A stretch of 64,000 nt of DNA from Mariniblastus sp. (GTDB taxonomy: Bacteria > Planctomycetota > Planctomycetia > Pirellulales > Pirellulaceae), in NCBI GenBank assembly GCA_029247405.1, contig JAQWLH010000026.1, positions 1-64,000 of the forward strand. Direction: 5' to 3'. Shown one piece after another: positions 37,998 to 46,706 of the stretch. Both the position numbers and the translations under genes were made by a program. Under the pieces are notes generated by a model, which worked only from the letters and a program-made list of their open reading frames with translations, had not been told where the DNA came from and ran no database searches. The stretch's first letter is position 1. Every line of letters starts with the position of its first letter.

Positions 37998-38867
37998 CTA
38001 CAACGATATATTTCGCTTAACTTGCGTGTAAGGAGGAGGCGGAGATGGGGTGGGTTTCGAGAGCGATTTGTTATCGAATTCGAACAAGTGATCGACAAGC
38101 ATCTGAGTATCGGTTTGCGATTTCTCCAGCCAAACCGAACGAACTGATTTGGGTAAGCCGTAAGAGTCAAAGCGATCCGCGGGAAAACAGCTCAAAATTC
38201 CGGCGGCGATCTCCCGATTGATCTCTGGGTTGGCCGAGTAGTCAATTTTGTCTCGGAGCATGTCGGCCGCAAAAGATAACATGAGAACTTTTTGACGAGT
38301 CACGAATTCTTGGCCGGCCGTTTCCTGATTTTCATTGATAAAATCCCTCACACGATTTCGATCAAAAGCAAACAAAGCTGCCTGCTCGCTACTGGGAAGT
38401 TGCCCTAGGAATAAATCCGTCCACCGTTCCATTCGCCTTCGGCTCGAATTAAGCTGGTCAAACATCTTCTCATTCGTTGATCGACCATGAAGCATAACTC
38501 GGATAGCGCGGTTTTTAGCTTCGATATGGCTAATATGAACTGAGTGAGCCAATCCATGCATTTCATCACTGTTGTGATACCAATCATGAGTTGTCACGGT
38601 CGCCGCCCAGACTCTCGTCAGCATCTCGGAAAACAGAATTTCTTGTATCAGGATTGCCATCGCCGGCCATGGATCATGATTCTTGATGGGTGAGTTAAAA
38701 TCTTGCTCAAACATTTTGAGAGCTGTAATCCAGCGATTGATTCGAATCTTCGACGCTGTCCAATAGTTGGTGGCAACCATCATCGGTTGTTCGTTTTCTC
38801 CGTAGATTAGTGTGCCAGCATTGATGGCAACCCAACTACCGAGTTCTGCGAGTTGATTGGCGTGCAT
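37998..38867 (-). CDS. Hypothetical protein, mostly helical
   Basis: A 289-residue protein without signal peptide or membrane segment. It is rich in helix, His and Trp (LTRVWAATVTTHDWYHNSDE, GLAHSVHISHIEAKNRAIR) and ends in a Pro-rich tail (SKPTPSPPPPYTQ). The frame is long and has balanced protein character throughout, so it is a real gene, but I recognise no family. It faces the ExbB operon tail to tail. Confidence 0.65.
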   Translation of the reverse strand: MHANQLAELGSWVAINAGTLIYGENEQPMMVATNYWTASKIRINRWITALKMFEQDFNSPIKNHDPWPAMAILIQEILFSEMLTRVWAATVTTHDWYHNSDEMHGLAHSVHISHIEAKNRAIRVMLHGRSTNEKMFDQLNSSRRRMERWTDLFLGQLPSSEQAALFAFDRNRVRDFINENQETAGQEFVTRQKVLMLSFAADMLRDKIDYSANPEINREIAAGILSCFPADRFDSYGLPKSVRSVWLEKSQTDTQMLVDHLFEFDNKSLSKPTPSPPPPYTQVKRNISL

Positions 38868-39120: not shown

Positions 39121-39163
39121 GGTTCGCCACACCTTCATGTTCCTTTTTTGCAACAATTTATCA

Positions 39164-40135
39164 ATGACTGATTCACCCATTTCCGACTTTCTGGAAACGC
39201 AATTTTTGCATTTCAACGCGAGAGAAACTCTCGACGCAGCCAAAAGCTACAGAAAACACTTGTCCGATGGCGGCAAGATGCTGATCAGCCTTGGTGGGGC
39301 AATGAGCACCGGCGAACTTGGAATTTCTTTAGCAAGAATGATTCGCGAAGACAAAGTCCACGCTATTTCGTGTACCGGGGCGAATCTTGAAGAAGACGTC
39401 TTTAACCTAGTCGCGCACGACGATTACCGCATCGTTCCCAACTATCGTGACTTATCGCCCGAAGCAGAAACCGAATTGCTAAATCAGGGCTTGAACCGAG
39501 TGACCGACACCTGCATTCCCGAATCGGTGATGCGGCATATCGAAGACAACTTTATGAATGTTTGCGCTAAACTTGCAGACGCAGGCGATTCTTTGTTTCC
39601 GTTTGAAATATTCTACAAACTCTTTGAAACGAAAGTACTCGAACCGCATTTTCAAATCCCCCGCGAGCACTCGTGGTTACTGGCGGCTTACGAAAAAGGA
39701 ATTCCTGTCTACTCACCCGGATGGGAAGACTCAACACTCGGCAATATTTTTGCGGCTCGCGTCATGGAGCAACGAATCAGTTCCCACCATGCGATTCGCA
39801 CTGGCACCGAGCAAATGGAGCATCTAGTCAATTGGTACTTAAAAAGCGAAGCCAATTCATCGATTGGATTTTTCCAAATTGCGGGGGGCATCGCAGGAGA
39901 CTTCGCAATTTGCGCTGTCCCCACGATCATTCAGGACCTACAAAAAAACATCGGGCTCTGGGGCTACTTCGCCCAAATCTCGGATTCCACGACCTCGTAT
40001 GGTTCTTATTCCGGTGCAGTACCCAATGAGAAAATCACTTGGTGTAAGCTAGAGGCCAGCACACCAAAATTCATGATTAATTCTGATGCTTCAATCGTGG
40101 CCCCATTAATTTTTGCTTATGTCCTTGGAGACTAG
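39164..40135 (+). CDS. Deoxyhypusine synthase-like protein
   Basis: A 323-residue member of the DHS family. Conserved parts include LISLGGAMSTGELG (NAD-binding), SCTGANLEED, the P-V-Y-S-P-G region, AGGIAGDFAI and SYSGAVPNEKITWCKL, where K295 matches the catalytic Lys of DHS (W-G-K in the human enzyme). Bacteria have no eIF5A, so such proteins are thought to transfer the aminobutyl group of spermidine to a small amine, as homospermidine synthase-like enzymes do. This fits aguB elsewhere in the window. The ATG at 39164 was chosen by family start; an upstream in-frame ATG at 39137 is possible. Confidence 0.85.
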   Translation: MTDSPISDFLETQFLHFNARETLDAAKSYRKHLSDGGKMLISLGGAMSTGELGISLARMIREDKVHAISCTGANLEEDVFNLVAHDDYRIVPNYRDLSPEAETELLNQGLNRVTDTCIPESVMRHIEDNFMNVCAKLADAGDSLFPFEIFYKLFETKVLEPHFQIPREHSWLLAAYEKGIPVYSPGWEDSTLGNIFAARVMEQRISSHHAIRTGTEQMEHLVNWYLKSEANSSIGFFQIAGGIAGDFAICAVPTIIQDLQKNIGLWGYFAQISDSTTSYGSYSGAVPNEKITWCKLEASTPKFMINSDASIVAPLIFAYVLGD

Positions 40136-40411: not shown

Positions 40412-43400
40412 CTACAGCAGATCATCCAACGTTCTCCAGTCAATGTCTTTACGTGTCTGGATTCGTTTGACCAATTCAATGGCATCTGGACGAGTTTCGA
40501 GCAAACGGAAGGCAACATTGGCAAATGAAACGTCCTCAGCTTCGAAACACAACACAAAGTTGCCTGATGTTCCACTGATGGGACAGCCTTGAATATTGAA
40601 TTGTTTTTCGAGCAAATCGGGGATGATCGAATCACTCGATAATGCAGGTAGTCCAACCATCAATCGAGAGTTCCCACCGCAGGTACTTAATCTTGGCCGA
40701 GCTTCGCTAATTTTCTGGTTGATCCATTTGACGAGTCGTTCCGGTCCCACGTTGTTTTTGACAATGATGTTTTCCAATGAGACTTTCTTGAAAGCATCGC
40801 TGAGAACTTTTTGAATCGAATGACGAATTTCTTTCGCCAGTGGCTCATTCCAGATCGTTGGTTCTCGAAGCATCGTCAAAAACCCACCACGTTCCTTAGC
40901 AATCGATTCAAATACTTGAACCTCGCTTTTCGCAATGTGATCCACCAAATTCTCGGCGATACTTTCGCGCAGCAACGCTTCAAACTCAGGAAGTTCGTTG
41001 GTCCCTTCGATTTCGTCCGCTGCATCAAACTCTCGACTAACGACATTAATTTGGCTCTCGAAACGCTTAATAAGATCACCGACATTCCCCAGTGATTTAT
41101 TGATTTCGCGATAATAGACTCTCGCAAAACGCAGGCTAAATTCACTCACTCGCATTTGGCAATATTCGTCAACTAGAGCAATGGGAATCTCACGTGCTGC
41201 GTCCGAATCCTGACCGGCCGCGCTCATTGCACGAATTTGCTGATTTAATTTTTCAACTAACTGACTGGTTTTCCAGCCCAATTGTTGGGTCAAAGATGCG
41301 ATCTGCCTTAGTCCCTGGTCAGCAGCAAGTTTCGCGTCACGAAGTTTCAACTCACTTCCATCGATCAATTCCTGAATCACCTGTGACAATCGCCCCCCGG
41401 TCACAATTCCATGTTCGGAGATCATTTCCTCCATCAACAAACAGACTTCCGGATCGCTGTGCCCAGCGTCCCGCCTGAACGGGGGGCAACCCAAAGCTCC
41501 ATCAAGATAGGCCACTAAATTCAACACACCGGAGGCTGAGATTCCACGGGCCCCCGCAACAATCGGTTCGAAGGTGCCATCGAGTGCGCGCAACGACCAG
41601 TTGTCAATCGACTCGATGACTTTGTCCTGCGTTAAACCAAGATGAGCAAAACAATTCCCAGTAAACGATTGGAAATTTAATTTTTCGCTGGAATCACGCT
41701 GAGTCCATCGGCGCAGCAATCCTTGGCCTACCTGATTGATTAAGGCCGGATCGGCCGTCTGATTGCTGAGGCTTACGCCAAATGTGCGGAGAGCAAGATG
41801 TTCAAACTCTGACTCCAAATCGCGACACTTATCAAAAAACTCTGAACATTTTGAAGTCGTTGAGAGGTAGAGATACTCAGAAATCCCAGCTAATTTGTCG
41901 TCAAAGTCTGATTGACTTTGGTCGTCGCCCAGATCGTTAAAATAAGTGAAATCAAAGGGTGGCTCGTCATCAAACTCGGGAAGTCCGATGGTGTTGTCAC
42001 CGGGAAAACCACACTCAACAAAGTGCCGCATCTCTGTGAAGAAAGCGAGGGCATTAGCCGCTGACAGCCCCCGATCTCGCTCGTGTTGGCTGGTCGAATG
42101 CATTAATATTCCGATGACATCGTCGGTCTCCATTCCATTTTCATGCATCAACAGTTTCACTGTGTAGGCCAGATCAATTGCCATTCCACTTCCGACTCCT
42201 CCACTGATGGAAGTCAATACAAAAACGCGTGGCTGCAACTTGCCCGGACTTAGGTCAAACAGATCGGCGGTCTTCGCAAGATTCTCTTCCTTGACGATCT
42301 GAGTAAGCCCTGACTGAAGCCGTTCACAGATGGATTCGAAGTGATCTGCAAATGCCAAACGACCCAGTGGACGTAGGCCTTCTGTTTGAAGTGATCTGGG
42401 AACATTATAAATCCACCGTCGACTGAGCCAGTTCAGGTAAGATGCGGATTGAACACGATAACCTTCGGCTTTTCGAAGTGGTGTTTCCAGAAGTTCATCC
42501 GAGAGCAGAGATCCCTCTGAGTGATTCATCCGCAGCCGAGCCATCGCCTGCCGATCCGCATCGACGCAGAGCATTTTGATCGCTGGAGCGTTTTCCATAG
42601 GCCCGTGACGCAATGTCCACTGGCTCTTAAGCTTTTCAACGACTCGATTGGCAGTTGAGCCGATACCGATAATTAAAGTGGGGCGCAGACTGTCCCGACT
42701 CCCTTCACACTTAGGCGGGGCGAGGGTTTTAAGTTTGGAAGCCTGAAACGGCAAACCATCACCTGAGATAATCGCAGTGACCTCACGCTGTTCAGTAAAA
42801 TCGATAGTGTTTATATCGGATCCTGTGTTGGTACGCATGATCGTTGAGCGTCGAATGGCCTTTCGGGCCGAACGCTTTTTATTCCCCAGTTCTTTTGCCA
42901 TGTCTCGGCACGATTTGTATCGAGCAGCCGGGTCTTTTGACAAAGCTTTGGCAATGATCGGTTGGTCACTTTTAGGGAGCGGTCTCAGATTCGGTTTCCC
43001 ATGCATATGCTGAGCCGTCAATTGTGCTGGTGTCGAACCCGGAAATGGTCGAACACCGGTCAGCATTTCCTGGTAGACAATGGCTAGAGAATACTGATCG
43101 CTGTTCATGCCGGGGCGACCATCGAACAATTCAGGGGCGGCGTAAGCCGGAGTCATACCTGACATCAATGATTGCGAAGCATTCTGCAAGTCTTTGATCA
43201 AACCAAAATCTGCGACTTTGACATGACCGCTTACCATCAGCAGGTTTTCTGGTTTAACATCGAGATGTTGAAGCTTGTGTTGATCGCTCATGTAGTCGAG
43301 TGCATCTGCTGCAGAGCGAATGTATCGCACCAATTCATCACGAGGAACTCCCACTTCGCCGGTGGCCGCATATTCATTGAAGAGATTAGCTAAGCTGTTA

Positions 43401-43678
43401 TCAGCCAATTCAGTTACTACAACCAACTGGCCTTCATGGATTTCGATTCGCTCAAGCGAAAGCAGGAATGGATGCCGAAGTCCCTTGACTCGGTCAAGCG
43501 CCTTCAATTCTGTCTGCGCCCGCTTTTCGTCATGAAAACCGTAAACAATCTTGACGGCCTTCATGAGCCCCCCCGGCGCAACGGCAGACCAGACCTCGCC
43601 AAACCCACCAGAACCGATACGTTCTTTGAGGGTATAACCGAGAATATTTCTTTCCGCTTCGAGGGGGTTTGATAACAA
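40412..43678 (-). CDS. Ser/Thr protein kinase fused to a tubulin/FtsZ-like domain
   Basis: A 1088-residue protein. Residues ~10-270 are a complete Hanks-type kinase: GSGGFGEVW (22-30), K43 (AVKIV), catalytic HLD-V-K-P-E-N (138-145), DFG (157-159) and A-P-E-L (181-184). A linker follows. From residue ~333 a second, nucleotide-binding region starts with PTLIIGIGSTANRVVEKL, then has I-S-G-G-V-G-S-G-M (491-499), like the GGGTGTG tubulin loop of FtsZ/tubulin, followed by helices and strands; this matches the tubulin-like (Tubulin_2) pattern. The C-terminal ~450 residues are helical and unassigned. The AAA+ gene lies upstream on the same strand (236 bases). Kinase call certain; tubulin-like call fairly sure. 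Confidence 0.85.
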   Translation of the reverse strand: MLSNPLEAERNILGYTLKERIGSGGFGEVWSAVAPGGLMKAVKIVYGFHDEKRAQTELKALDRVKGLRHPFLLSLERIEIHEGQLVVVTELADNSLANLFNEYAATGEVGVPRDELVRYIRSAADALDYMSDQHKLQHLDVKPENLLMVSGHVKVADFGLIKDLQNASQSLMSGMTPAYAAPELFDGRPGMNSDQYSLAIVYQEMLTGVRPFPGSTPAQLTAQHMHGKPNLRPLPKSDQPIIAKALSKDPAARYKSCRDMAKELGNKKRSARKAIRRSTIMRTNTGSDINTIDFTEQREVTAIISGDGLPFQASKLKTLAPPKCEGSRDSLRPTLIIGIGSTANRVVEKLKSQWTLRHGPMENAPAIKMLCVDADRQAMARLRMNHSEGSLLSDELLETPLRKAEGYRVQSASYLNWLSRRWIYNVPRSLQTEGLRPLGRLAFADHFESICERLQSGLTQIVKEENLAKTADLFDLSPGKLQPRVFVLTSISGGVGSGMAIDLAYTVKLLMHENGMETDDVIGILMHSTSQHERDRGLSAANALAFFTEMRHFVECGFPGDNTIGLPEFDDEPPFDFTYFNDLGDDQSQSDFDDKLAGISEYLYLSTTSKCSEFFDKCRDLESEFEHLALRTFGVSLSNQTADPALINQVGQGLLRRWTQRDSSEKLNFQSFTGNCFAHLGLTQDKVIESIDNWSLRALDGTFEPIVAGARGISASGVLNLVAYLDGALGCPPFRRDAGHSDPEVCLLMEEMISEHGIVTGGRLSQVIQELIDGSELKLRDAKLAADQGLRQIASLTQQLGWKTSQLVEKLNQQIRAMSAAGQDSDAAREIPIALVDEYCQMRVSEFSLRFARVYYREINKSLGNVGDLIKRFESQINVVSREFDAADEIEGTNELPEFEALLRESIAENLVDHIAKSEVQVFESIAKERGGFLTMLREPTIWNEPLAKEIRHSIQKVLSDAFKKVSLENIIVKNNVGPERLVKWINQKISEARPRLSTCGGNSRLMVGLPALSSDSIIPDLLEKQFNIQGCPISGTSGNFVLCFEAEDVSFANVAFRLLETRPDAIELVKRIQTRKDIDWRTLDDLL

Positions 43679-43914
43679 TTTGATGCCTTTTCTTGCCTAA
43701 CAGATCTTCATTTCCAGTGCTTAGCCAGGAAAATCCGCTGAAATTTAGCTTTCAGATAGCCGGACGAGAAGATTTGTGGCGAATTGGAGAGATTTCAACG
43801 GGCAGGGAATCGCCCGTTAGCCCGCAAAGTCAGAAAAAGCGAAGGTATCTGTCCCAATCGTCCCGTATGCTGCCGACGCACACAAACAACCGAATCACCT
43901 TCCAATTTTGATGG

Positions 43915-45252
43915 TTACTTGGAGCCAACATCGTTGAGAACGACGGTAAAGTAACTTTCGACGACTCGATCGAAATATTCGGGGCGAAGTTCGACCAGGA
44001 GTTCATTGTACTCACAGAAACTTCGAATTTGACTGAGCAAGTCTCGCGGATGACATCGCCGAAGACGGCGGCCACAATTTAAGAAATGGTTGTTTAACAG
44101 ATAATCGACAATCTCCGGCCGATATTCACAACCAAATTTCTCGCAGTAGATCTGAAACAGAACGTGAAATTCTTTGGGACTAGGATCCGCAATCTCGATC
44201 TTGTAGGGGATCCTTCTTAAAAATGCTTCATCGACCAAATCGGACGGTTCAAGGTTGGTTGAAAAAATAATCAACTGCTCAAACGGAACCTGAATCTTTT
44301 TTCCGGACGCAAGGGTGAGAAAATCAACTCGATTTTCCAAAGGAACAATCCAACGATTCAACAACTCCTGCGGCTCAATACGCTGACGGCCAAAATCATC
44401 AACCAGCAGACAGCCGCAGTTACTTTTCATTTGTAATGATGCTTCACCAACGTTTGAAATTGGGTCTTGCCAAATTTCAAGAGCGTCCATCGTCAGCTCA
44501 CCACCAACAATTACAGTTGGCCGTCGAATCTTTACCCAGCGTTTATCATAAGCCGCCTCATGAATCAAACTGTCAGAATCATCTTGCGTCTGATGATGGT
44601 AGGCTGCATCAAAAAACTTGATAATCTGTCCATCTTCGAAAATCGCATGGGGTACCCAAATCTCTTGCCCAAAACACTTGGTGATTCGCTGAGCAAGTGT
44701 CGTTTTACCGTTTCCCGGTTTACCATAAAGAAACAAGCCAGCCCCAGAGTTAATTGCCGGACCCAAGCTTTCAAAAAGTGACTCGTTGATCGAGATATCT
44801 CGAAATGCATTTCGGAGCTGGTCTCTCTTGGGGGATTCGGCTCGAATCGTTTGAGCTTCAGCACTGAGCACATAATCCATCAGCGGCACTGGTGCTGGAC
44901 CGACATAGGAACAGGTTTGTCGAGCGAGCGAGGCACGCTCACCTCCGTGCTCGGTTAGTGCATAGTTGTAATCGTTAAGCGGTGCTGCACCGCTGTGCAT
45001 GATCAATTGCCGAGAACGCAGTTTTTGATAGAGCTCTTCGAGCGCCTTAAACGGAATACACAAATCGTTGGCGAGCTGACGACCACTGGTCGCGCCAACT
45101 GCAGCAAGCCGTTTAATGATCAACGACTCGACCAGATTGTTGGGGATTCCCGTTTCGTGCAGCGTCGCTGGCTCGGACGGACGAAATGACTCGTCAGCCA
45201 TGATCGTCGCCAAGAGGCTACTGGAAAAACTAGGTGGGGTGGTGATGGACAT
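43915..45252 (-). CDS. AAA+ ATPase with winged-helix-like N-terminus
   Basis: A 445-residue protein. Residues ~35-110 look like a winged-helix domain (NNLVESLIIKRLAAVGATSG, RQLANDLCIPFKALEELYQK, LRSRQLIMH, YALTEHG). From residue ~140 comes an AAA+ ATPase: Walker A GKPGNGKTT (177-185), Walker B CLLVDDFGRQ, sensor 1 LIIFSTNLEP and an Arg finger pair (LRRIPYKIEI). Between domains lies CSYVGPAPVPLMDYV. The function of this domain combination is unknown to me; the kinase-tubulin gene downstream suggests a joint process. It is divergent from the FHA-EAL gene (about 300 bases). Confidence 0.85.
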   Translation of the reverse strand: MSITTPPSFSSSLLATIMADESFRPSEPATLHETGIPNNLVESLIIKRLAAVGATSGRQLANDLCIPFKALEELYQKLRSRQLIMHSGAAPLNDYNYALTEHGGERASLARQTCSYVGPAPVPLMDYVLSAEAQTIRAESPKRDQLRNAFRDISINESLFESLGPAINSGAGLFLYGKPGNGKTTLAQRITKCFGQEIWVPHAIFEDGQIIKFFDAAYHHQTQDDSDSLIHEAAYDKRWVKIRRPTVIVGGELTMDALEIWQDPISNVGEASLQMKSNCGCLLVDDFGRQRIEPQELLNRWIVPLENRVDFLTLASGKKIQVPFEQLIIFSTNLEPSDLVDEAFLRRIPYKIEIADPSPKEFHVLFQIYCEKFGCEYRPEIVDYLLNNHFLNCGRRLRRCHPRDLLSQIRSFCEYNELLVELRPEYFDRVVESYFTVVLNDVGSK

Positions 45253-45551
45253 CGTGAAGCTTTGTTATTTCAAAGTTGATTTCCGAAGCTTATTTATCTT
45301 AATCGGCTTGTTTTCACCTCCCAATCCAATTTTGACCGTCATTCAGTAATTGATTCACCCCACTTGCTTGAACAATCCAAAGAGTCTGTTCAAACCAAAT
45401 GATCGTTACAAAGAGTTTGGTTAAATTTTGGATTTACCTGCCGTCAGTCTTATTGGAAAGCTACAAATCCCCAGCGAGTAACTTCGCTTATCTCCCGAGA
45501 TGGAAAACCACGGCTAACTCTTGTCAATAGTTATTGCAACTAATCCAAATA

Positions 45552-46706
45552 ATGAGTGACACAACTCCACCACCGATTTCTGCATTGAACTCAACCAGCA
45601 ATCAGTGGTACTTAACCGGTCAGATTGATGAAAATCAAACAAATCGAGAATTTCCGGTACATAATTTTCCGTTCACGATCGGTCGAAGAAGCAACTCATC
45701 ACTCCCCTTACCAGCTGCTTGCATCTCGAAAGATCATGCTGTCATCGAGATGACAATCGATGGCTTAGTCTTGAGGGAACGGGGCAGTACAAACGGTACA
45801 TTCGTCAATGGCGTCAAAGTGACCCGGGACGTGGTCATTCAAGAAAATGACCTCATCCACTTCGCCGCACTCGTTTTCCGCGTCGGCATGAAACGAGAGT
45901 TTCAGGAGATCCAGCATCACACCATCCAAGAAGACGTCTGCGATCGGGCGTTGGCGATGATTCAATTTGAGCGATTAATTTCCGATGGCGGTTTGTACCC
46001 ACACTTTCAGCCATTGGTCAATTTGGACGACCAATCGCGAATTGGTTACGAGGTCTTGGGGCGGAGCCGATTATTTGGCCTTCAAACTCCGTGCGAGATG
46101 TTCAATGCTGCTTCCCAACTTGGGATGGAAGCCCAATTGAGTGAAGCGTTTCGTCATCGGGGCATCGAAATCGGGACAGCGTTTGGAAGCCAAGCCAACC
46201 TTTTTGTTAATACTCATCCCAAAGAGCTCAACCGGCCTGAGTTCTACAGCTCCCTCCGTGCCGTGCGAGAGGCAGCTCCTGATCAGGCGATCACCCTTGA
46301 AATTCACGAGGGGGCCTCGACGAACATGACGATGATGCGAGAACTTCGTGCCGTGCTGGACGACCTCGACATGCAACTTGCGTTTGACGATTTTGGAGTG
46401 GGGCGAGCCCGCTTGGTCGAACTAGGCGAGGTCCGACCGGACTTTCTGAAGTTTGACATGAAACTCACCAAAAATATCGAGCACGCACCAGCCAAACGGC
46501 AGGAGTTGGTGGCTCTGTTCGCCAATCTGGTGAACAATTTAGGCATCAAAACGTTGGCGGAAGGCGTTGAAACACGAGAATGTCACGAGATTTTGGTTCA
46601 AATGGGATTTCAGCTGGGCCAGGGGTTCTATTACGGCCGTCCGAGTCCGATTTCGAAATATACCGTCGATGAATTGAACGGATCAGCTCAACAAAACCCG
46701 AATTGA
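45552..46706 (+). CDS. FHA-EAL domain protein (putative c-di-GMP phosphodiesterase)
   Basis: A 384-residue protein starting MSDTTPPPIS (an upstream in-frame TTG at 45534 was rejected). The N-terminal FHA domain has TIGRRSNS, S-K-D-H and RGSTNGTFVNG, the phospho-threonine-binding pattern. The C-terminal EAL domain carries the metal and catalytic residues: E of YEVLGR (near residue 167), N of FVNTHP, E of LEIHEGA, the D pair of AFDDFGVGRA, K of FLKFDM and E of LAEGVET. So it is probably an active c-di-GMP phosphodiesterase placed by FHA binding to a phosphoprotein. No membrane segment. The divergent kinase-containing operon could provide the phospho-partner, which is inference. Confidence 0.88.
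   Translation: MSDTTPPPISALNSTSNQWYLTGQIDENQTNREFPVHNFPFTIGRRSNSSLPLPAACISKDHAVIEMTIDGLVLRERGSTNGTFVNGVKVTRDVVIQENDLIHFAALVFRVGMKREFQEIQHHTIQEDVCDRALAMIQFERLISDGGLYPHFQPLVNLDDQSRIGYEVLGRSRLFGLQTPCEMFNAASQLGMEAQLSEAFRHRGIEIGTAFGSQANLFVNTHPKELNRPEFYSSLRAVREAAPDQAITLEIHEGASTNMTMMRELRAVLDDLDMQLAFDDFGVGRARLVELGEVRPDFLKFDMKLTKNIEHAPAKRQELVALFANLVNNLGIKTLAEGVETRECHEILVQMGFQLGQGFYYGRPSPISKYTVDELNGSAQQNPN

Follow-up and report, generated by a model that had tools for sequence, protein, structure and literature searches.

Introduction

The FtsZl1 family of tubulin-like proteins has been tied to genes for vWA, GTPase, OmpA and separate kinase proteins. Makarova and Koonin (2010, PMC2875224) listed four members from planctomycetes that carry a kinase at the N-terminus; at that time, similarity of the family's C-terminal part to other C-terminal domains was undetectable. 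The kinase-tubulin fusion was mentioned again in a 2023 paper, and in a 2024 survey (PMC11032199) tubulin-like is the commonest partner among the domains exclusive to cytoplasmic Planctomycetota kinases. Here we analyze one such fusion gene, encoded on a 64,000-nucleotide stretch of Mariniblastus sp. DNA (GenBank assembly GCA_029247405.1, contig JAQWLH010000026.1, positions 1 to 64,000; hereafter, the window), together with the genes that accompany it. We find that the kinase-tubulin gene is inherited with one specific clade of AAA+ ATPase and with an FHA-EAL gene; sister lineages add a REC-GGDEF-CBS gene to the set.

A first-pass annotation of this DNA, made from the sequence alone, had pointed out the fusion and paired it with an AAA+ ATPase gene. 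The fusion is real; that it had been described in 2010 already was not known to the annotation. What appears to be new is the gene set: a literature search, sparse in subscription journals, found no paper on the AAA+/FHA-EAL association.

Results

The kinase-tubulin gene, of FtsZl1/Tubulin_2 type by open reading frame (ORF) call and Pfam, occupies 40412..43678 on the minus strand, starts with TTG and encodes 1088 residues; it is the only Tubulin_2 gene of the host genome. Upstream on the same strand lies the gene for a 445-residue AAA+ ATPase (43915..45252), both ORFs falling where the first-pass annotation had placed them. The third partner, a 390-residue FHA-EAL protein, is encoded at 45534..46706 on the plus strand, with a possible ATG start at 45552.

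When ORFs around the kinase-tubulin gene were called and clustered in relatives, AAA+ and FHA-EAL genes recurred as neighbors, joined in other families by REC-GGDEF-CBS. We retrieved 80 loci with tubulin motifs as the only criterion and counted neighbors within 4 ORFs: FHA-EAL was present at 60, AAA at 51 and REC-GGDEF-CBS at 12. At least one of the three partners stood at 70 of the 80, some of the remaining loci being cut by contig ends. The gap between the kinase gene and a same-strand upstream AAA gene was at most 461 bases at 46 of 51 loci. Four loci carry all four genes together (L206-L208 and L211), three of them in the same family and one in a different order of the class. In the cultivated Lacipirellula limnantheis I41 (L198), AAA+, kinase-tubulin and FHA-EAL genes adjoin one another on a single strand.

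Because a phylum-wide draw sampled the order of the window, Pirellulales, too sparsely, co-occurrence was counted in an order-wide set of 198 genomes, nearly all at least 90% complete. Tubulin_2 is present in 87 of these and missing from 111, and an AAA match lies within 10 kb of it, always on the same strand, in 65 of the 87. All 76 genomes with an AAA match above 506 bits also have Tubulin_2, and no such match occurs in the 111 genomes without it (Fisher value 2.6e-43, which ignores shared ancestry and uses a 506-bit line drawn after the data were seen). As an independent check, a tree grouped the AAA genes linked to tubulin, three of which lie on other contigs, in one clade (99/95), apart from 14 sampled paralogues. 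Three Tubulin_2 genomes lacking this AAA gene were opened (G348, G433, G443), and none has a kinase-fused copy at that place. The neighborhood is far above chance. The adjacency of the ATPase and fusion genes, which the first-pass annotation had pointed out, is found to recur; the conserved FHA-EAL partner had been overlooked. One contig carrying a planctomycete-type kinase-tubulin gene is labelled Candidatus Nealsonbacteria (L189) and is probably misbinned.

The N-terminal part of the fusion protein matches Pkinase (PF00069) at residues 15-255 (42914..43636; this and the following features of the protein are on the minus strand) with an E value of 2.6e-33, and the catalytic lysine, HxDxKxxN and DFG are all present (K43, D140, N145, D157-F158-G159). 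We compared 99 relatives, 96 of which have a kinase domain. Of these, 95 align at K43, E57, D140, K142 and N145, and in them the five residues never vary; residue 157 is D in 95 sequences and E in one. The kinase is soluble and of the Hanks Ser/Thr type, with the complete active site that had been claimed for it, and a variable linker of low conservation (residues 266-332; 42683..42883) joins it to the tubulin part.

Tubulin_2 (PF13809) matches residues 335-622 with an E value of 1.5e-32 and 113.7 bits, against a curated cut-off of 27. Pfam, a predicted model and fold matches place the tubulin-like nucleotide-binding domain at residues ~333-660 (41699..42682). Its N-terminal strand, PTLIIGIGSTANRVV, corresponds to the T1 loop (GIGSTANRV), in which G340 is conserved among the relatives, and D373 and D375 stand in the strand and loop where FtsZ has NTD. 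Within the T4 nucleotide loop, TSISGGVGSGM (residues 489-499; 42182..42214), the stretch I-S-G-G-V-G-S-G-M spans 491-499, with G493, G494, G496 and G498 kept in 94-99 of the 99 relatives, and GGVGSG fits the GTP-binding pattern GG.G[ST]G.

We modelled residues 325-1088 using 19 relatives (mean predicted local distance difference test score, pLDDT, 84.8; predicted template modelling score, pTM, 0.75), and fold alignments follow the model's numbering. Foldseek matched the model to tubulins and FtsZ/CetZ with a probability of 1.00 and a best E value of 4e-5. VIA-align superposed model residues 7-747 on CetZ (3zid) over 302 of 360 residues with a Z of 26.3 and a root-mean-square deviation of 3.7. 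Long helices at model residues 420-561 are followed by a C-terminal alpha/beta part. As modelled, residues 325-1088 are a whole tubulin/CetZ fold with a helical insertion of ~300 residues and variable sequence (residues ~669-974; 40757..41674). Because an alignment of 302 CetZ residues exceeds the capacity of the nucleotide domain, the last ~110 residues (~979-1088; 40412..40744) very likely form the fold's second alpha/beta domain; their conserved tail comprises E1046, R1072, R1076, D1078 and W1081. The C-terminal ~450 residues, which the first-pass annotation had left unassigned, are therefore predicted to be the insertion and second domain of this fold. A profile search of the PDB with the tubulin part returned mostly helical-bundle matches, with CetZ only at an E value of 0.097, so that Pfam and the structure model carry the fold assignment; a PHROGs search gave no match for the tubulin part and otherwise only weak ATPase matches. 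The tubulin fold, the GTPase loop and the recurring ATPase neighborhood on which the first-pass annotation had staked its proposal were all found.

The FHA-EAL protein carries, by Pfam, an FHA domain at residues 48-110 (45675..45863, plus strand) and an EAL domain at residues 145-370 (45966..46643, plus strand). The phosphothreonine-binding residues R51, S65, H68 and N87 (GR, SxxH, NG) are invariant where aligned, in 65-66 of 67 FHA-EAL proteins. The EAL domain of the window protein has all eight catalytic residues for metal and cyclic di-GMP (c-di-GMP): E173, N226, E256, D285, D286, K306, E343 and Q363 (ENEDDKEQ). Counting a site as complete when at least 7 of these 8 are present, the EAL site is complete in 47 FHA-EAL sequences, none of whose loci has REC-GGDEF-CBS, and degenerate in 20, of whose loci 13 have it. 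On the kinase-tubulin tree the degenerate type requires only two changes, and EAL degeneration therefore probably took place once or twice rather than many times. Among the REC-GGDEF-CBS proteins, a single tandem copy (GGEEF, L087) escapes degeneration of the GGDEF motif. We read this pattern as steady selection on phospho-reading, with a changing use of c-di-GMP chemistry. At L087 (12850-16197) the REC-GGDEF-CBS genes are in tandem, one with the intact GGEEF and one degenerate, and the pair, possibly an enzyme and a receptor, adjoins a degenerate FHA-EAL gene and a kinase-tubulin gene.

The AAA+ protein scores just under the Pfam AAA cut-offs, and by ORF call, tree and co-occurrence it belongs to the clade that occurs only with Tubulin_2. 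Its N-terminus (residues 38-99; 44956..45141, minus strand) is modelled as a helix at 38-52, a strand, helices at 57-64 and 68-80 and a hairpin at 84-99, the winged-helix-type order of elements that had been suspected from the sequence. The core and lid (residues 157-434; 43951..44784, minus strand), delimited by invariant columns and fold matches, contain the Walker A motif GKPGNGKT, the Walker B motif LLVDDF, sensor-1 N333 and arginines at 346-347 and 403; G180-N181-G182-K183, D285-D286, N333, R346-R347 and R403 are invariant in 37 AAA+ sequences. Structure matches of the model were AAA+ proteins throughout, among them an uncharacterised Pyrococcus protein (8p49; Foldseek E 1.1e-12, VIA Z 17.9). 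The top sequence match is spastin (E 2.5e-4, around the P-loop). A spastin/katanin-like identity (Spastin/Vps4, meiotic clade) is suggested by that match and not favored by the other comparisons, the profile preferring VCP-like proteins and the structure preferring 8p49 and Lon, and comparison by sequence, profile and structure assigned the protein to no known AAA+ clade.

Two further AAA+ paralogues are common in these genomes and share no context. Considered as a functional clue, the paralogues were set aside: they neighbor an ABC transporter or unrelated genes, and in one case a MoxR-DUF58-vWA operon, with no common theme. Paralogues of the same family stand at L105, L107 and L114-L117, one of them by the MoxR-DUF58-vWA operon; the one scanned, L107, matches no Pfam family.

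A scan for promoters and terminators between the AAA+ and kinase-tubulin genes was uninformative, yielding no more candidates than shuffled sequence. Between the AAA+ and FHA-EAL genes, 45369-45425 holds three overlapping degenerate 26-base direct repeats, possibly by chance. Considered as iterons of a TubZRC-like centromere (tubC), they make no convincing array and are not shared with the relative L126.

By Pfam, the window neighbors of the kinase-tubulin gene are the AAA+ and FHA-EAL genes together with deoxyhypusine-synthase-like, TPR and ExbB-like genes, and none links it to vWA, GTPase or OmpA genes. That linkage is a trait of context and not a requirement for Tubulin_2/FtsZl1 membership. 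The deoxyhypusine-synthase-like gene (39137-40135, plus strand; PF01916, E 3.6e-39) adjoins the kinase-tubulin gene; its adjacency, and that of a 289-residue ORF of unknown function at 37998-38867, is kept within the genus and not across the order.

Discussion

The company that this gene keeps points to a signalling device based on tubulin and away from a division ring. We hold with good confidence that the kinase, the tubulin part and the FHA-EAL protein make up one functional unit. The invariant FHA site and the conserved adjacency support a physical chain that runs from the kinase to FHA. The FHA domain probably reads a phosphosite written by the kinase of the fusion protein. That the tubulin part oligomerizes in a nucleotide-dependent manner seems, by a little, likelier still. 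The evidence is evenly poised on whether the AAA+ ATPase disassembles rather than loads; the loader role proposed by the first-pass annotation is without support. Taking the locus as a whole, we lean slightly toward a signalling module built on a tubulin-fold scaffold, reset by the AAA+ protein and read by FHA-EAL into c-di-GMP signalling.

From the computed architecture, conservation and linkage we infer how the module could work, from assembly and phosphorylation to the direction in which the AAA+ protein acts and the c-di-GMP output. Nucleotide binding would lead the tubulin domains to self-associate, into a filament or a smaller oligomer, and the assembly would gather kinase domains that could then autophosphorylate in trans. 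The partner's FHA domain would bind the resulting phosphothreonine and in this way bring the EAL domain to the assembly. In the intact-EAL lineage, which includes the window, this could produce local c-di-GMP breakdown; in the dead-EAL lineages, the EAL and REC-GGDEF-CBS proteins might instead be receptors for c-di-GMP or the phospho-signal. The AAA+ ATPase, acting via its winged-helix recognition domain, would dismantle or remodel the assembly and so reset the switch. A trait under c-di-GMP control, for example attachment or a change of cell type, would be the output. More tentatively, and to our minds rather doubtfully, the tubulin-fold polymer might itself be the scaffold on which the kinase is activated, with nucleotide-driven assembly, trans-phosphorylation, dismantling by a dedicated AAA+ protein and FHA-EAL passing the signal to c-di-GMP. 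If true, this would be a bacterial cytoskeleton for second-messenger control in FtsZ-less cells.

Several observations weigh against a signalling module of this kind. In the window, the FHA-EAL gene is divergent from the AAA+ gene and shares no operon with the kinase. For 22 of the 87 Tubulin_2 genomes, no AAA gene turned up within 10 kb of the tubulin gene, although most of the 22 have it elsewhere. Against a simple version of the chain from kinase to reader, the FHA target motif TxxD/E is not enriched in the kinase-tubulin linker (39 of 96, with 52.8 expected). Across the 99 relatives there is no conserved acidic residue between 631 and 1046, and the T7 catalytic acid of tubulin/FtsZ is for this reason not located. 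GTP hydrolysis, and with it dynamic filaments, may, to judge by these sequences, be absent from the kinase-tubulin protein.

An alternative that we consider unlikely, though the strongest of those weighed here, is a membrane-remodelling machine of the FtsZl1 kind or a conflict-type machine, as proposed for vWA-linked tubulin systems (Makarova and Koonin, 2010; Kaur et al., 2020). The tubulin family is the same, kinase genes often adjoin FtsZl1 genes in other phyla, and GTPase-tubulin conflict systems are already described. However, no vWA gene was identified by the kinase gene in the window, and Tubulin_2 appears in two kinds of setting within the phylum. The kinase-less Tubulin_2 genes whose neighbors were read (L210, L212, L218, L220) adjoin vWA-PKD proteins; the kinase-fused type has AAA+, FHA-EAL and sometimes REC-GGDEF-CBS as neighbors, and one genome, G505, holds both AAA-linked and vWA-linked copies. 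There is usually one copy per genome, the gene set is stable, and no effector-like variable gene was seen. Considered as an anti-phage system, the locus gave only generic kinase domains and weak IetA-type ATPases in PADLOC. The genome G505 has three Tubulin_2 genes (L220, L221, C1:9591931). One stands by the AAA+ clade; of the other two, which lie elsewhere, at least one lacks the kinase and adjoins a vWA-PKD gene.

We regard it as very improbable that a kinase-controlled tubulin-like ring or filament substitutes for FtsZ in the division of these bacteria. The premise that planctomycetes lack FtsZ, raised by the first-pass annotation, holds up: PF00091 (FtsZ/tubulin) was found in 0 of 40 relatives and in 13 of 14 control genomes, and the kinase fusion is usually the sole tubulin-superfamily protein of its genome. 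A link to division fares less well. The gene is absent from the 111 of 198 order genomes noted above, and 9 of the 40 close relatives, themselves without FtsZ, also lack it, so that it is not a general replacement. The same argument was made for FtsZl1 in FtsZ-bearing bacteria (Makarova and Koonin, 2010, PMC2875224), and the conserved partners here are signalling proteins, not division proteins.

Scarcely credible, finally, is TubZRC-like DNA partition, in which the AAA+ winged helix would bind DNA and the tubulin filament move it: the winged-helix-type N-terminus and the tubulin fold would suit it, but the gene is chromosomal and single-copy in a chromosome-like context with RecJ-like and uracil-DNA-glycosylase-like neighbors, and the only upstream repeat family is the one at 45369-45425, which is not seen in L126. 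In TubZ systems TubR is a small protein of its own, and no kinase, AAA+ or FHA-EAL protein is known to belong to them; in the ORF list, nothing small and TubR-like separates the conserved genes of the locus. The partition-like machine of the first-pass annotation thus finds no footing.

With a signalling module on a tubulin-fold scaffold, the orphan domain fusion of 2010 would become part of a gene module that is defined and can be tested. On this reading, bacteria without FtsZ are predicted to have a tubulin relative that is wired to Ser/Thr phosphorylation and c-di-GMP and not to division, and the structure model predicts that FtsZl1 proteins retain the whole tubulin fold, interrupted by a large insertion. 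Should the AAA+ protein act on the tubulin part, bacteria would have a counterpart, in the sense of an analogy only, to the ATPases that remodel tubulin polymers.

Comparison with known systems

The protein resembles FtsZl1 in its nucleotide-binding domain with T1 and GG.GSG T4 loops, its long helical region and its C-terminal part (PMC2875224). It differs in setting: the kinase-fused type is tied to the AAA+ clade, FHA-EAL and REC-GGDEF-CBS, as against the vWA, GTPase, OmpA and separate kinase genes reported for the family. The second tubulin domain, visible in the present model, was beyond the sequence methods of 2010. The passages of the 2024 kinase survey that a text search located (PMC11032199) count the tubulin-like domain only, without gene context or structure.

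The vWA-linked tubulin/GTPase conflict systems share with this locus a tubulin domain with a helical extension, in a multi-gene, NTP-dependent system (Kaur et al., 2020, PMC7159879). By comparison with those systems, no vWA, GAP1-type GTPase, HSP70 or variable effector was identified here; the locus instead pairs the tubulin protein with FHA-EAL and with an AAA+ ATPase from a different family.

Among FtsZ/tubulin superfamily proteins of solved structure, CetZ was matched to the predicted fold over 302 of its 360 residues, at a Z of 26.3. Unlike CetZ, the kinase-tubulin protein has a helical insertion of ~300 residues, a fused kinase and a T7 catalytic acid that was not located, and the two proteins share 14% identity.

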